Assembly (NCBI GenBank): GCA_000467715.1
Contig: AJFK01000302.1
Coordinates: forward strand, 62,001 to 126,000
Origin: Hysterium pulicare CBS 123377
Lineage: Eukaryota > Ascomycota > Dothideomycetes > Hysteriales > Hysteriaceae
DNA: 64,000 nucleotides
Direction of reading: 5' to 3'
Shown here: in pieces, positions 957-62,124 of the stretch
How positions within the stretch are numbered: position 1 is the stretch's first letter
How the letters are laid out: each line of letters starts with the position of its first letter
Notes under the pieces: generated by a model
Told to the model about the DNA's origin: nothing
The model's database searches: none
The model's input: only the letters and a program-made list of their open reading frames with translations
Program-made: the position numbers and the translations under genes

Positions 957-3194
957 CTAGAGAGTAGGAACAGGTCTTTCCGGAAAATTCTCCTCCCAAG
1001 CCAACACAAATTGCAGTACAGTCGCTTCATCATGTTCCTTGACAATAATGCAGATTCCAAATGGACGGGCATTATATTTCAATGTACCAAGAGGCACCAC
1101 GCCGACTGGATAACCGGCGGCGGCAGCATGAACACAGAAAGCTGAGTCGGCTGGGGCGGCTAGAACATCTACCCCGTTCGAATCGAAAGCATCGTTGAAA
1201 ATCTTCTTACCTGGTCCTCTAAGTCCATCTCTCAGCTCAACGATTTCCTCTTCGGACTCGGAATTCTGGGAGAGTTTGACGAGATCGTCTTGGTTCGAGT
1301 ATGCTGCGAAACTCCAGTGTCATCTACTGCGATAAGTATTGCACGATGTGGAAATTTGACTTACGTTGTGAAAGCGCAATCTCCTCGTGCTCTTCGTTGA
1401 AGGCGATGATGTCCTCAAGGGATCGCATTTTGGATTCTTCGAGCGCTGAGAGGAACCTTGGGATGCCGTAGTTCTTGAATTCCCAAACTAAAGCCACCTA
1501 CCATTAGACACTGGAGGAGCTTGGAACAAGTACGAGTCATTGAAGAGGAGAACTAGAGTGCATACGCCCTCTTCCGCCACCATCACGAGTGGATGGAAGA
1601 GAAGCGTAAGCACAAGTGCGCCGGCTGTACCGCAGTAGGATGGGTAGACGACCGTGAACTGGCTTTTGGGAGCGGGACAGAGCTCGTTTGGGGTTGGGAG
1701 CATGAAGCTTCAGCCATATTACAGATGATGAGGGTGTCAGGAAGAACCCGTTCCTCTACGTAAAGAAGCAAACAGGACCTACAGGAAATCGGCATGATGG
1801 CATGCTCGCCATTGACTTTCAGCTCACAGGTCTCGGGGACAACCGGATGTTGAATCGTGGCGCCAATTCCTTGGAGTTTGACAATGGCAGCTTCGTAATC
1901 CTCTCTCTATGATCACTTCAGTACAGTAATCTCCTAATATTAATGAACCACAGCCACTCACCATTTGCTCCTTCGTTCCCTCATTAGAACTCAACGCAAA
2001 ATCAAAGCAACATCGTTACATCATTGAATGAAATCAACAACTATAAATGAGAGCTTTAAATATAATCGCCGCTTGCGCGTGGTTGAGCTTAATCAAACTC
2101 TTCTTCCCTCATGCTGCCGACACATCTCCTCACTCAAGCCCCAATTATCGAAGTCGACAATCCGGGCCGAGAGACCTGACCAACTCTCCTGGACCTCAAG
2201 CTTTAGAGGACGCCTTAACGTAATTTCCAATAGAGGGGCCAGGTCACGGGGAGACTTTGCCGTTGGCCAGCGTTATCGAAGAAATCACTCAACGCGAAGA
2301 TCCCTTCCATGTCGACGTCTGCCACCGTAGGCTTGATGGCATATAAAGCCGCTCTAGTAACAGGAGTTGCTATTGATCCGATAGTTTCGGTTCTGATGGC
2401 TAAAAGGGCGAAGCTAGCTGCTACAGCGACGGCGGAGTCTGTTGACGAGCCGCCGGGAGCCAGTTCGGGCAGTTAGCTGGGGACACCTGGAAGTTGAGAA
2501 AGGTGAAGTGAGGTCCGGGGGAGCTTACCGGATGACCTAAGATCGTCTCGTCCTTTTCAATCCTGGGGACGTAGGGAGATAGTGTTTGGCCTCCATAGGC
2601 TGACCAACTCGGCATCATCATGGTCATTCTGTGCTCGTTAAATAAGTCCAATATGACATGATATTCGGGATGACTGAACTTGAGGCCAAAGAATTCCTAG
2701 AAATCAAAGTTAGCGTGACTCTGCATGTCTCAAAATTGGAGATGCAGTGCATACTGTTAAGTTTGCTTTGCCCAAGATAATCATGCCGGCTTCGACCAGC
2801 CTCTCAATCAAGACAGCGTTCTTCTTCGGTTTCGCGCCCACGAAAGCCCAGGAGCCGACTGTAGTATCCATCCCAAGCGATGGCGCAGTCATGATATTAA
2901 CCTAGTAATGTAAGGACTATACATCTCGTGAGCTCCGGAACGTATCACCTTAAGAACGATCGGAATGCCATGCATAGGACTGCGCAGCTTCCCGGCAGCC
3001 CGCTCCTCGTCGAGAGATGCCGCGGTATTTCTGAGAATGTTGCGTGGAGCAATCGAGACGAGAGAAAGTCCAGCGCTGTTATGCGCAGCGATCTGGGCAA
3101 GGTATCTGTCGATGATTTCAATGCTCGTGATTTCCCTCGTCTGCAATAACGTTTGGAGTTTCATCGCTTTCGTTCTGGGTGGATCAAAATGCAT
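957..3194 (-). pseudogene. amidase-signature (GatA-like) amidase pseudogene
   Basis: This is a relic of a fungal amidase-signature family enzyme, which would hydrolyse amides with a Ser-cisSer-Lys triad. The start at 3194 gives MHFDPPRTKAMKLQ, followed by the MHGIPIVLK motif with the catalytic-type Lys. Exons 2949-3194, 2755-2901 and 2529-2696 join in frame and carry TAPSLGMDTTVGSWAFVGA, KANLT and WSAYGGQT. The next exon (to about 2105) has the glycine/serine motif PGGSSTDSAVA. After an intron come REDYEAAIVKLQGIGATI and AIMPIS, and after a 295 bp intron (1488-1782) EFKNYGIPRFL and the terminal AGYPVGVVPLG block, stopping at 957-959. Three lesions are visible. No in-frame AG acceptor precedes PGGSS; a GAACTG stands where GAACAG would fit. 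A one-base loss near 2270 shifts the frame between FDNAG and AKSPRDLAPLL. A 128 bp insertion lies in the exon at 1985-2112. The family is certain and non-function is likely. Confidence 0.85.
1985..2112 (-). mobile_element. short dispersed element, copy 1, with 9 bp target-site duplication
   Basis: A 119 bp unit (1985-2103) plus a duplicated TTCCCTCAT (1976-1984 and 2104-2112) interrupts an amidase exon. Removing the 128 bp restores the continuous reading CRQHEG-TKEQM. In the orientation of the gene the unit begins GAAGAGTTTGATTAAGCTC and ends GCGTTGAGTTCTA. It matches the copy at 45383-45504 over its shared ~117 bp except one C/T. I see no terminal inverted repeat, no poly(A) tail and no tRNA-like boxes A and B, so the class (SINE-like, MITE-like or introner-like) is open. 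Confidence 0.85.
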
Positions 3195-3895
3195 GTTGGG
3201 CGTATCTTAGATGATGAAAACCGTTCCGAGGTATTAATCTAAGGATGTTGAGCTTCTATAGCGCTGCCATGCAGCGAAGTAGGTATTGGTAATATCGTGA
3301 ATTAGTAACCTACGAGCCTGGCTAGGCAACAGTTCGGGAAGTAGAGGAGATAATGCGATACGGTTCGTTTCCGCGTCCAGGAGTGAATAATCGACGTAGC
3401 TGCAATCAAGGCGTCTGATCCACTAACCTTGGAATATACTAGACGGGCTTGATCACGGTACTGAGTATGAAGCTGATCCAACGAAGTGATAACACAATAA
3501 AAATTCCCATTACTCATAACCATAAATACAGTCTAGGGTATATAAGAACAGATTCAACTGTTCTCTGAACATTCCCTCTATCCAGCCAACAAACACATAG
3601 ACAACAAAAGGGAGTGATAAAAGATGGGTATTTGTTAGTGAAGAAAATAGTAGAAAAACACCACAACATAAAGGCCTTTCCACTCCAGGAAGGAGACATA
3701 GATGGCCAAAAAAAAAAATGGAGTATTAGTACAAATAAAGAAGAATGAAATGTAAGAGATGGTGCTGGATAGAAGAAAACAGTTGAGGATACATTGAGAC
3801 AAGATTCAAGAAGAGGGCATAGATAATGCCACAAGATACTTGACCGCAATCGTGCAGTGATAGCGGATTAGTAGCCAGGATGTTGTATGTCCCCA
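3195..3895. other. intergenic, no supported gene
   Basis: The frames at 3302-3523 and 3514-3849 (-) look like chance reading of AT-rich sequence. There is an A-rich homopolymer near 3707-3718. I see nothing recognisable. Confidence 0.5.
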
Positions 3896-5289: not shown

Positions 5290-5830
5290 TCAATATTTTC
5301 ACGAATAATGGCCTTGGAGGAGTCAATTACTGTAGTATAAGAGCCATTAGAAGTGCAAAGACGCTTTTAGAGGCCGTGAGAGGATAGGTTGTGTCATTGA
5401 GGTTGACTAGAGTTGTGACTGCTGATCCTGTACTCATTGGTGATGACGAGAAAGGGTTGTGACTACATTCTGTGGGAGTAATATAGAGTGGAAAGACAAT
5501 ATTGCGGCTTGAGTGCTGTCCTTGTCATCATACATGATGACTAGTATGAATGAGTGATGTTGATTTACTCATTGAAAGTAAAACAAGAAGAGTGAGTGGT
5601 CATTCTGTGGGAGTAATACTAATTGGAGGGACGCTTTGGTGGTCTGAGAGGGCCCTTTTGTGTCATAGACGGGTGGCCAGTACATGTGACTAATGATTTA
5701 CTACTCACAAAGAATGACGAGCAGGTGGTGTGTGTTGATTTCAATGAGTATTAGCGATGGAAAAACGCTCTTGCGGCCTTGGGAAGTCGCCAAACGCGTC
5801 AAAGACACGGACTAGGACTCTTTATCAATG
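5290..5830. repeat. degenerate ~135 bp tandem repeat, four copies
   Basis: The block GACGCTTTT-(g)aGGCC-TGAGAGG recurs at about 5360, 5495, 5630 and 5764, so the spacing is 135, 135 and 134 bp. Shared flanks include CATTCTGTGGGAGTAATA-TA-GTGG before it and TGTCAT-GACTAGTA-GTGAC-GATTTACTCA after it. The copies are clearly diverged from one another. No reading frame is conserved through them, so the unit is probably non-coding. Confidence 0.7.
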
Positions 5831-37998: not shown

Positions 37999-39556
37999 GG
38001 TAGTGGGTAGTTAGTGTGGACGTGCGATTGGGGGAGATTGTTTTCTATGTACTCAATTAACATATGTCTATCATCATTCGTTTTTTTGATGACACGTGGC
38101 TCATGACTACTTCTTTTGGCCTTGTAAGAAACGTGCACGCAAATACGTGACTTGGGTCTTCCCAGCTCGAGGGTTCCCCACTGCCATGCGCTGAAAGCCG
38201 GACGAGCACGAACATCCTCATTAACGACCTTGTGGAAGTTGTTTTGAGGTTGGTCTTTTCAGCAGTAAGCTAAATGAGGCAAGGTCCTTAAAAGTCTTCA
38301 TCGCGTGCGTTCAAACTAATCATTAAGATAGGGTAGGACAAACAATGTTTTTTTCCTTCAAATCGCATGTCCCCGTCTTTTGGATTCCATCTTCTAAAGT
38401 AGGAGTTTACAAAGCTAAAAGTATATCCCTATCTGTTTGCAAACTTAGCGTTTCGAAGTCGTTAGCCTTACTCTTACCGTAACTCTTTTGAAGAGTTGAA
38501 TCTAGAATCTTACGCTAATATGGGGTTTTAAAGATAATGCTACTTGAATTGCTTCCGAGAATGATTCTTTCTAAAATCAACATATGAGTTCTTAAGACTT
38601 AGATTATAGGCTATCTTTGATTTTTCCATCTCGCAAATTCAAGTCTTCTCGGTAGCTTAAGAACATGAAAAGCTTTTTTATGCATATGCTGCTATAAAAA
38701 ACATGAAGCGAAAGACTTTTGGGTAGGAGGGGACATTTTCATAGGCGGGATTTGAATGGCTAGGAGATTGGTTTGAGAAATGACGGCTTCGCCGTGGTTT
38801 GGCATAGCTTTGAGGCTGATGTGAGTAAACTTCCTTCGGCTGCGTTACTCGGCTCAAGGGAGATTATGTTCCTAGGACTGAGGATCACGAAGTTATACGC
38901 GAAGACCTTATCTTACGCTATTTCTCTATAGTTCTCTCGTGTTTGATTGCCTCCTTCATATATAGACTCTAGAGATCAACCCCCAAAAGAATCAACAGAT
39001 TCCATTAATGCCGTTTTGTGGAATCATTATGTTCTAAAGGTTAATGGTTTGCATTATTAACTGATTTTACTAATTCCACTTTCTAGAATCAGTAAGAAGA
39101 GTTTGGTGACATTCAACCACGGGTTAAGCGGTAATTTTGATTCATACTCTCATTTGAGGTGTAATCTCATTGAATGATGTAACGGTCTTTCCTTGGTTTA
39201 TTCCAGAATTAGTGGAACTAGAAAGTTTGATTTCAGTGTCTTGACACTTATGATATTAGGCAGATTAAGGCTTCGAAGTTCAGTAATTACACATCCCATC
39301 CGAGTTTTCATTACGCGTGCACTTCTGAGCCGTGTGTTTGATGTGCCTTCTTGTTTTTGATGAAGCAAATGCCCATTAATTCCGGCTGTGAACCATTCAT
39401 CTGCACGAGGATGATATCTCATCGTAGACCGGGCGGGCTTCCCATGCAAACATTCCCGTATCAGGGTTATAAACGCCTCTAAGACACGAACGCCACCAAA
39501 GAAAGCCATGTCCATATCCACCTTTCCTTCCATTTGTGTGCATCCATGCATGAACA
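37999..39556. other. AT-rich intergenic stretch with an element relic
   Basis: From about 38270 to 39250 the sequence is AT-rich with many short TTTAAA/CTTAAG-type words and no open frame of note apart from 39198-39563 (-), which has no motif. A diverged copy of the small dispersed element lies at about 39096-39204. Confidence 0.5.
39096..39204 (+). mobile_element. short dispersed element, diverged copy 3
   Basis: Shares with the 2.0 kb and 45.4 kb copies GAAGAGTTTG, TCAACCACG-GTTAAGCGG, CTCTCATTT and TCATTGAATGATGTAACG in the same order and spacing. Possible decayed target duplication: AGAATCAGTAA (39085-39095) against AGAATTAGTGG (39205-39215). It is older than the other two. Confidence 0.65.
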
Positions 39557-44697: not shown

Positions 44698-45938
44698 TAG
44701 CAGCAGCCGCCTGATCTTACGACACAACAGATCCGCCTCTTGCATATCAGGCCTCGGGCAAGGCGTGGAATCATCGAATCTAACTTGGACACATGCGATA
44801 TCGCCGAGTTGAAGCCCTACACAGCCCTATCCCACACATGGGGTCCGGAAAACCCAACCAAAGGCATCTCAATTAAGGGAAAACTTTATCGAATCCAACA
44901 AAACCTATGGGACTTCCTTATAGTCTTCCAAGGCCAGTTCCCGGAGTCGCACTTGTGGATCGATCAAATATGTCTCGAGCAAGCAAATACTTCCGAGCGA
45001 AACCACCAGATCAAACTTATGGCACACATATACAGGAATGCTATGAGTGTTGTCTCATGGCTTGGATCCTCGGCCGATGATAGTGACTGGGCTATCGACA
45101 TCCTCCACAGTGGACCTAGTTGGGCACAACGGCTCGATAGGGTTACTTCAAGACAGAGCTGTAGAGACCTAAATAACCGCATCGAACGATTTTGTAGCAC
45201 TATCCTACATCTATTCGCACGGCCATACTGGCGTCGGCTTTGGGTCGCGCAGGAGATCTTACTTCCGAAAGAGATAACGTTGCTTTATTCCATTCTAAGC
45301 TCTAGCTGCAAGGGGCTGACCAGCTCTTGGGTAGGCATGCTGCAATGCTGTTGGTTAGTGGTGGCCACCCCTCGTATAGAGAAGAAGAGTTTGATTAAGC
45401 TCAACCACGCGTAAGCGGCGATTATATTTAAAGCTCTCATTTATAGTTGTTGATTTCATTCAATGATGTAACGATGTTGCTTTGATTTTGCGTTGAGTTC
45501 TCAACCTCGTATAGAGAGCAAAGAGGGGATGAAAGAAACCCCACCAATTCTCAGTACGCTCCTTTCATAACACCTGGACCATCTGGGACATAATCCCTCA
45601 CACGATGCTAAGATTCACGATACACGTGTTCAGTATCTTCGAATGGCGCGACACGCGCGAAAAGTATACGGTTTCCTAGGGCTTGACAACATGGAGGATC
45701 GCTTGATAATCGACTACCACATAAGCCATCATTGGAGGTGCTTTGGGAATTCCTTCGGAGTACTCTTAGGAGAGATGCTCTCTGGGCGAAAGAACGTGGC
45801 AGTGAATCGAAATTAATGGGCGAAACGTATCGAACCGGAATCACACTATTGAAACAAATGGAATTAGACTCACAGATAAATGAAAAATTCCTCACCAAGT
45901 CCAAATGTGAGGAGCTAGAAGGACAAGGGAGAACCTGA
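44698..45938 (+). pseudogene. HET-domain (heterokaryon incompatibility) gene, broken
   Basis: HET-domain proteins trigger cell death when unlike hyphae fuse, and such genes decay often. The domain is clear at 44700-45290: PYTALSHTWGPENPTKGI, SHLWIDQICLEQANTSERNHQ, IYRNAMSVVSWLG and RPYWRRLWVAQEI. No ATG fits; the frame opens after a TAG at 44698-44700 that could be a splice acceptor, so the 5' end is uncertain. Downstream, WDIIPHTMLRF, FEWRDTREK, VYGFLGLDN and EVLWEFLRSTLRRD are all recognisable but lie in three frames. This implies single-base losses near 45668 and 45725, besides the small dispersed element inserted at 45383-45517. It is therefore a pseudogene in the reference sequence. Confidence 0.8.
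45383..45517 (+). mobile_element. short dispersed element, copy 2, with 13 bp target-site duplication
   Basis: A 122 bp unit (45383-45504) lies between perfect duplications CCTCGTATAGAGA (45370-45382 and 45505-45517). Excising 135 bp restores the HET reading ATPRIE-SKEGMKETPP. Compared with copy 1 at 1985-2112 (opposite orientation) only one substitution is seen in the shared ~117 bp; the ends differ by a short CAA instead of A. The different duplication lengths (9 and 13 bp) do not fit a cut-and-paste transposase with a fixed stagger. Confidence 0.88.
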
Positions 45939-51693: not shown

Positions 51694-52904
51694 ATGCAGT
51701 GGTTCTCCTTGGTCGCCCTCTCGCTCGTCGCGCCCTCCGAGGCTCTGCTCCGATTCGGATGCTCGCAGCTCGTCCGCCAGCGTCTTGACCCCCTAGTCAA
51801 TCCCGGTGTCTCTCCTTCCCCACATGCCCATCAAATTGTCGGAGGAGTGCGTAACTTCGCTTCACCTCATTACGACATCTAGCTGATTGCAATAGAACTC
51901 ATTCAATGTCTCCATGGATCCCGATAACGACATTGGTGCGACTTCGACGTGCACCACCTGTCAGTTCTCAGAGGACTTCTCCAACTACTGGACCGCCATC
52001 CTGTACTTCAAGGCCAAGAATGGAACTTACAAGCGTGTTCCACAGCGAGGCAATGCCGGCTTCGAGGGTGCCAACGGTGGCATGACCGTCTACTATATGC
52101 AAGACGGCCTCGGCGATTACGAACAAAAATCCAAAGTCACTGCCTTCAAGAAGGGTTTCCGAATGCTTATCGGCAACGTCATGGCTCAAACCAAGGCCGA
52201 GGCTGATAAGTATCCCCAACTAACCTACACTTGTCTACAAGACTTGAACACCCGCTACCCCGAAACAAAGGATTTCCCCGCGAAGGCCTGCCCTGCAGGT
52301 ATCATGGCCAACATGCGATTCCCAACGTGAGTCTGCAAATGCACCGAAACCAATGGCTCGTTAACATGGAATAGATGCTGGGATGGCAAGAACCTCGACT
52401 CACCCGACCATATATCTCACATGTCATACCCCGCCAACGGCACATTCGAGAACCAAGGTCCCTGCCCAGACACTCACCCAGTAAGGATGCCGCAAGTCAT
52501 GTATGAAGTTATCTGGGATACCAGGAAATTCAACAACCAAGAGGATTGGCCCGCTAGCGGCCAACCCTTCGTGTGGAGCTTTGGTGACCAGTAAGTGTCA
52601 ATTTATGGCTTTTCTCAGAGATTAGCTAATACGATATGTGTAGGAAGGGATTCGGCAACCACGGTGACTATCTCTTTGGCTGGAAGGGTGATGCCCTTCA
52701 AAGGGCGATGGATTCGGCGACATATGTCCAGACTCCCACCCTGAAGACTCAGACCATGGCCGACCAGAACAACTGCTCAATCGCTCCTACAGTCCATGAG
52801 GATATCGATGGGTGTAAGTTTTGCTCGTGCGCTGTAGTGAGTAGCTCACACTGACGATATTCTTAGGGATTCCTACGCTTCCCGGAAACCCAAACATGAA
52901 TTAG
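51694..52904 (+). CDS. secreted DUF1996 protein, paralogue A
   Basis: Five exons (51694-51846, 51896-52326, 52375-52590, 52644-52813, 52867-52904) give 335 residues. A signal peptide (MQWFSLVALSLVAPSEA) is followed by the DUF1996 domain: [104 protein letters not shown] and [18 protein letters not shown]. The His/Asp/Trp motifs and even Cys content fit an extracellular domain; its activity is unknown. No C-terminal WSC or GPI signal is present; it ends WIPTLPGNPNMN. The last exon encodes only about 12 residues. A second paralogue lies at 60393-62124. Confidence 0.9.
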
Positions 52905-60392: not shown

Positions 60393-62124
60393 TCACTCAT
60401 ACGTAACAGGAACACCTCCCGGAAGTACCGTAAGCCCTAGATCTTCATTAGCCCACATATATCAACCTCCTCACTCGCCCCTCCCATCTTTTACAAAGGG
60501 AGAAACTACTCACATTTGTCCCCATCAACATCCTCCTTAACGTGCTGCCCAATAACACATTTCTCCGCCACCTCGCCTGTTTGGCGGAGGAGCTCTGAGC
60601 AGCGATCACCGCTACAGCGGGCGTTAAGAGCACGTTGAAGCGCATCGCCTTTCCAGCCGAAGAGGTAGTCGCCGTGTTGGCCGTGGCCAGTTCTACGTCA
60701 GAAGAACATTAATCGGTTGACAAACATAGCGACGTGAGGGAGGTTTAAGAGCGAGGTATCATCTCCAAATTCTCGGTAAAAAGAAAGCATCAATGAATTG
60801 AGAAATTGAAGGGAGGCAAAATCAGGGGAGTAGGTAGGAAGGCTGGACTCACCCATCACCCATACTATAAACAAAAGGCTGACTCCCATCCTCATTCCAC
60901 AAACTCTTATCATTAAACGGCCTCGTATCCCACATAACCTCATACATAACCTGCGGCAAATGCACCGGATGACTATCCGGACACTTCCCCCTCTCCATAA
61001 TCGGATCGTACGGGTGACTAACGACGGGATCGTAGTACGGTTCAAACGGAATCTCCGCGTACGCAACGTGGCTCTTATGGTCTGGCGAGTCGAGGTTCTT
61101 GCCGTCCCAACACGTTGGGAAGCTGATGGTCGTGCGGATGCCGCCGGCGCAGAAGGTTGGCGGGAGGGTGGTGGTGTCGTTGCCCGTGCATGGGGGACCG
61201 CCGAAGGGCGTGAAGTCGGCGCCGAGGAAGCAGCGGTGGCAGATTCCTCGGGCGTCGGTTGCGGCGCTGCGGTACATGGGGTCACCGGCTAGCATGCGGA
61301 AACCCTGAGGGGGGATTAGGAAAGATTGGAAGTATAGGGAGTGAGGATGAGGAGAAGGCTTTGTAGAGTATATTGAGAGGGCTGAATGGTGAGGCGTGGC
61401 CTTTTGCGCGAAAAGTCGTGGAAGCTGAGAGACTTTGCTAGTTTAAACGGGAGAATGAATAAAAAGTCGGGTTACTGAGCATGGACTTCGGTACTTCTGA
61501 TAGATGGTATCGAGAATGTAGTTATAAAAACTCGGAGATTGCAAATAAGGTAGGAAGAAAATATAAAAGACCGAGTATGAACATTATAATATGAAAACTC
61601 ATGGAGCATCTCGAGCAGAACCGCAATCTCAAATTTGAAGAAAAGGGAATACTTACCGGCTTAAACGCCGTAACATTACTAATCCCATCATAAGGCGGAA
61701 TATAATAAACCGTCAACCCCCCATTCTGCACCAACCCGCCATTCTCAAACTGCTTCACGCGCTTGAAAGTCCCATTCCTCGCCTTATAATAAAGCGTCGC
61801 AGTCCAATAATTGCTGAAATCCTCACTGAACGTGCAACTCGTGCACGTGGACATGGCAGCTGGGTCGTGGTTGGCAGGGTCCATGGTTACGTTGAACGAG
61901 TTCCCGCCGGCGATTTGGTGTACGTGCGGAGAGGGCGTTTGGCCGGGTGTCCCGATTGGATCGACGCGCTCGACAGTTAGTTGGGAGCAGGCAAAGCGCA
62001 TCATGGCGGCTTGTCGGGAGCCATTTCGTGGGGGTGCTAGTTGTCGGGGAAGTGAGAGGGCAGCGGCATGGGCGATAGAGAGCTGCCCTAAGAGGGCGAC
62101 AATTGTGGGAGTGCTCCAGTGCAT
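60393..62124 (-). CDS. secreted DUF1996 protein, paralogue B
   Basis: Four exons (61657-62124, 60853-61304, 60514-60692, 60393-60436) give 380 residues. After the signal peptide ([21 protein letters not shown]) and a short basic segment comes the DUF1996 domain: [117 protein letters not shown] and [19 protein letters not shown]. The final exon gives [14 protein letters not shown]. If that splice is ignored the frame stops at once after DGDKC, which is the less likely reading because paralogue A has the intron at the same place. Compared with A it has about 40 extra residues with CHRC and CTGND cysteines. Confidence 0.88.

Follow-up and report, generated by a model that had tools for sequence, protein, structure and literature searches.

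A short non-coding mobile element with target-site duplications in Hysterium pulicare: a possible LINE-moved retroposon family

The stretch of Hysterium pulicare DNA analysed here, referred to below as the window, is 64 kb long and holds three copies of a short repeat unit, two of which interrupt gene-like sequences. The first, copy a, interrupts a minus-strand reading between amidase-like pieces. Pfam places the amidase domain PF01425 at 2215-2469 and also, below its cut-off, at 2889-3206, and the piece at 957-1316 has no Pfam match and a weak amidase match in PDB (E 0.04). In the same amidase-like reading, a donor-like GTGAGT is found at 1956-1961 on the minus strand. Some 14 bp separate it from the copy a duplication, which places the insertion near a possible exon end. 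The second, copy b, interrupts a plus-strand reading, the upstream part of which is a HET domain (PF06985, E 1.6e-28). At the third, copy c, no gene was recognised, and the one open frame that overlaps it has no Pfam match. The DNA around copy c is AT-rich, with 38% G+C at 38901-39420 compared with 49% in the window as a whole. Copy c is also enclosed by the arms of an imperfect inverted repeat of 18 bp (39078-39095 / 39209-39226, 78%), which overlap the duplications of copy c, and copy c may lie within another small element. Elsewhere in the window, Pfam matches to CDH-cyt and fungal rhodopsin were found, which together with the HET match indicate a filamentous fungus. There are also a 48 bp direct repeat (5466-5513 / 5601-5648, 73% identical, 135 bp apart) and a 37 bp inverted-repeat pair (52376-52412 / 61076-61112, 89% complementary). 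Long open frames cover the arm at 61076, and so this pair may be a coding motif of two paralogues.

A preliminary description of this DNA had reported two copies of about 120 bp, in opposite orientations and with one difference. Indeed, when copy a (1985-2103, plus strand) was compared with the window by BLAST, copy b (45383-45504, minus strand) was identical to it at 117 of 118 aligned bases. In a repeat search of the window, the match of this pair stretches to 1986-2109 / 45378-45501 (124 nt, 98%), because both duplications start alike on that side (TTCCCT / TTCTCT). A search for the unit in the whole genome and in related species had been proposed as a check, and within the window one more copy was found. 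Copy c, on the minus strand, gave a BLAST match at 39096-39199 with 78 of 106 positions identical (74%) and a score of 65.2 bits, compared with 32.8 bits for the best match among 200 random first-order Markov windows. The span of copy c given below is this match with its ends adjusted by eye. Its score against a three-copy profile is circular because all three copies built the profile; its BLAST score is not. Neither BLAST nor the profile search gave a fourth copy above noise in the window. When the bases shared with the target duplications are counted as element, copy a covers 1985-2105 on the plus strand (121 nt; 2104-2105 shared), copy b 45382-45504 on the minus strand (123 nt; 45382 shared) and copy c 39094-39204 on the minus strand (111 nt), with a small net internal gap. 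Copies thus occur on both strands. The presence of a third, older and diverged copy means that the family has at least two ages and is not one duplicated segment. Judged from the sequence, the unit is a small interspersed family made up of a young, near-identical pair and an older member. Two other possibilities were considered and rejected. First, the unit might have been a fragment of a larger transposon, as the preliminary description had allowed. No such carrier is seen in the window: the similarity between copies a and b enters the duplications by only about six bases and stops there, and therefore no longer repeat within the window contains the unit. Second, copy c might have decayed in a RIP-like manner. 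Of its 35 differences from copy b, 17 are transitions, which is not a strong transition excess.

All three copies are flanked by direct repeats. Perfect duplications of 9 bp and 13 bp had been claimed for the young pair, and both are exact. Copy a lies between TTCCCTCAT at 1976-1984 and TTCCCTCAT at 2104-2112, and copy b between CCTCGTATAGAGA at 45370-45382 and CCTCGTATAGAGA at 45505-45517. At random window positions with a spacing of 119 bp and a slippage of 4 allowed at the ends, 5 of 4000 trials gave an exact repeat of 9 bp or longer, and 1 of 4000 gave one of 13 bp. Around copy c, a probable decayed duplication is formed by AGAATCAGT at 39085-39093 and AGAATTAGT at 39205-39213, which are 9 bp long and differ at one position. 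This repeat sits at the point where the alignment to copies a and b stops. It is weaker evidence than the other two, because it has a mismatch, because 19 of 1500 random positions have a repeat of 9 bp or longer when one mismatch is allowed, and because the longest exact repeat flanking copy c is 5 bp. The duplications are therefore unequal in length (9, 13, and 9 with one mismatch), as had been noted for the first two, and variable length is what is expected of SINEs, as far as three copies can tell.

It had also been claimed that removal of the unit restores a known protein at both sites, and here only a part of the claim stands. When the insert and one duplication are removed, an open frame is obtained at both site a and site b. 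However, Pfam gave no match at E values up to 1 for the 61-residue reading across the empty site a, and the sole PDB match of this reading, a histidine kinase at E 0.91, is not meaningful. The amidase match just upstream of site a lies in another frame than this reading. At site b, the HET match ends upstream of the insertion, and the restored frame runs into a stop at about 45568. Introns that escaped recognition could account for part of these observations, and gene decay could do so as well.

The two ends of the unit are of different character. When the bases that also belong to the duplications are counted as element, one end is identical over 12 bases, CAAACTCTTCTT, in all three copies. 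In the orientation proposed for an RNA, copy a would read 5' TAGAACTCAACG ... CAAACTCTTCTT 3'. The opposite end is ragged, with TAGAACTC in copy a, TTGAGAACTC in copy b, and an end about 9-11 bases shorter in copy c. The fixed end overlaps the target by TT in copy a and by T in copy b, and there is no overlap in copy c. Beyond the fixed end, the similarity of copies a and b in TTCCCT / TTCTCT is absent from copy c. We read this run-on as overlap or as likeness between the two targets. Because the similarity enters the duplications, the exact end of the unit, and hence the extent of target overlap, is uncertain.

No coding capacity was seen in the unit, and marks of the well-known element classes were not found either, in agreement with the preliminary description. 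As for terminal inverted repeats, the best pairing is 7 of 16 in each of the three copies, and 71% of 5000 shuffled versions of copy a do as well. The longest A run in copy a is 4 and its longest T run is 3, so that there is no poly(A). SINEs are also marked by a simple tail or by a 3' end in common with a partner LINE, and no clear simple tail was seen at the copy ends. RNA polymerase III promoters are recognised here by their A and B box consensus. Both strands of copies a and c were scanned (copy b is one substitution away from a), and the matches, 6 of 8 for the A box and 5-6 of 10 for the B box, are at the random level, the median of 2000 random 119-mers being 6 for each. No tRNA genes were found in the window with a bacterial-code setting. 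In Rfam, nothing in the window reaches a gathering score; when E values up to 10 are admitted, four matches appear around copy a (the strongest at 15.2 bits, where the gathering score is 50) and none around copy c. A consensus fold of the three copies has three predicted helices, and 0 of its 17 pairs change on both sides. The plus strand of copy a folds no better than its shuffles (z 0.40), and the minus strand slightly better (z -1.44; 21 of 200 shuffles are as good).

Relatives were also sought elsewhere. No match to a long pattern of the unit was found in viral contigs, where 9 stretches match an 18-base pattern, and at least 117 stretches in prokaryote genomes match a 17-base pattern. When these loci were compared with the three-copy profile, the two lowest E values among the matches listed were 0.0075 (37 bases) and 0.0081 (54 bases). 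Both of these matches span the pattern used to pick them, and the viral and prokaryotic loci are thus taken as chance. Open-licence papers were searched for the sequence of the unit in print and for the topics of introners, LINE integration, fungal SINEs and TIR-less elements, and in the parts consulted no description of the unit was met.

Taken together, the results support the claim of a recently mobile family that is non-coding and non-autonomous and makes target-site duplications, and an older member can be added to it. The further statement that the unit could not be matched to a known class is too pessimistic, since the duplication lengths, and the fact that one end is fixed while the other is ragged, point, not conclusively, to a retroposon moved by a LINE. 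We tentatively favour this reading, at slightly less than an even chance: the copies may represent a short (111-123 nt), non-autonomous, SINE-like retroposon family moved in trans by a LINE. From three copies, we infer an RNA intermediate, its polarity and a LINE partner. In the proposed mechanism, a small RNA ending in ...CAAACUCUUCUU would be reverse-transcribed onto a nicked target (target-primed reverse transcription) by machinery supplied from a LINE encoded elsewhere. The fixed end would be the 3' end of the RNA, overlapping two target bases at site a or one at site b. The 5' end would be completed imprecisely, leaving the ragged end, and a staggered second nick would yield a duplication of variable length. 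This type of element is favoured because the duplications are unequal, because one end is fixed and the other ragged, and because the fixed end overlaps the target in copies a and b. The absence of inverted termini also fits, as do the presence of an older copy beside the near-identical pair and the use of both strands. Against it, the pol III boxes are not above chance, and poly(A), an Rfam match at the gathering score and a covarying fold are missing; the fixed end of copy c does not overlap the target, and there are only three copies. An internal pol III promoter, as of tRNA, 5S or 7SL origin, by which a SINE would be recognised, is not seen in copies a and c. No LINE was found among 16 stretches of the window compared with Pfam. 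It is possible, though less likely than not, that the unit stands for a new retroposon family of fungi, as short as 111-123 nt, which spreads with its 3' end fixed and lacks a pol III promoter.

The absence of visible coding capacity would suit a miniature DNA element as well, for example a MULE-derived deletion product without TIRs, on which a transposase acts in trans. The range of target duplications of MULEs takes in 9 bp, and two of the three duplications here have this length, one of them with a mismatch. However, the three copies have no inverted termini above the level of shuffles, one end is ragged, and a 9 bp footprint at site b would need about four further bases to match by chance, which we estimate at about 1 in 256. 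A DNA element of this kind is therefore unlikely. Another possibility is an introner-like element, that is, a mobile spliceosomal intron: the unit is about 120 nt long, is near-identical in two unrelated genes, and has one orientation relative to the gene in both cases (2 of 2). With GTTTGA near one end as donor, AG acceptors that keep the frame are found in 3 of 5 tried at site a and 3 of 7 at site b, but these rates are close to the chance expectation of 1 in 3, and splicing at GTTTGA would leave extra codons. The splice donor consensus is GTRNGT, which GTTTGA/GTTTGG does not fit. Indeed, none of the GT hexamers listed for both strands of the three copies fits it fully; the closest are GTAAGC in copy b, which agrees at 5 of 6 positions and reads GCAAGC in copy a, and GTATGA in copy c, which is antisense. 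Again, no gene was recognised at copy c. Introners with duplications and without TIRs have been published outside ascomycetes, but the ascomycete families are reported, in the parts of the source seen, to have neither TIRs nor TSDs (PMC9860276), and duplications are present here. The introner reading is thus disfavoured, and we hold it to be improbable. Finally, capture of cDNA or DNA fragments from one abundant source at staggered double-strand breaks by end joining, with no dedicated mobile cycle, would also fit the variable duplications and the overlaps of 1-2 bases at one junction, but it is the least probable explanation, as a 12-base end shared by three copies that differ in age suggests that the end is recognised and not captured at random.

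Annotation easily overlooks mobile elements that are very short and bear no recognisable marks of a class. In the present case, the insertions into gene-like sequence are events that can be tested, and the enzyme that moves the unit could be identified from the fixed end. If the unit does stand for a new retroposon family of the kind described above, a LINE in this lineage would be able to move very small RNAs. Beyond these points, the element is an ordinary kind of genome traffic.

The known systems resemble the unit in different respects. MITEs and other non-autonomous DNA elements are short and non-coding and have target duplications. The unit shares these features. It differs in having no inverted termini, by which membership of the DNA transposons would be recognised, and, as far as three copies can tell, its duplications are of unequal length, where a DNA transposon would be expected to make duplications of constant length. 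Fungal introner-like elements (ILEs) are described, in the parts seen, as near-identical spliced introns in unrelated genes (PMC4457414). In the sections available of a further report, some non-ascomycete introners have TSDs and no TIRs, some carry the donor and borrow the acceptor, and some add codons (PMC9860276). Introner-like elements are spliced introns; in the unit, no donor of full consensus was found, and its duplications depart from the reported ascomycete pattern, in which a target-site duplication is absent. Another comparison is with AfuSINE2 of Aspergillus fumigatus, which, according to the portions of the source seen, is tRNA-related, 140-493 bp long and has degenerate A and B boxes and duplications of 4-14 bp; the 3' end of one member resembles a Tad1 LINE (PMC5063351). 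AfuSINE2 differs in its length and its A and B boxes from the present unit, in which the pol III boxes do not exceed chance and Rfam gives nothing at the gathering score. Both are short, non-coding and dispersed, and both have target duplications of variable length.
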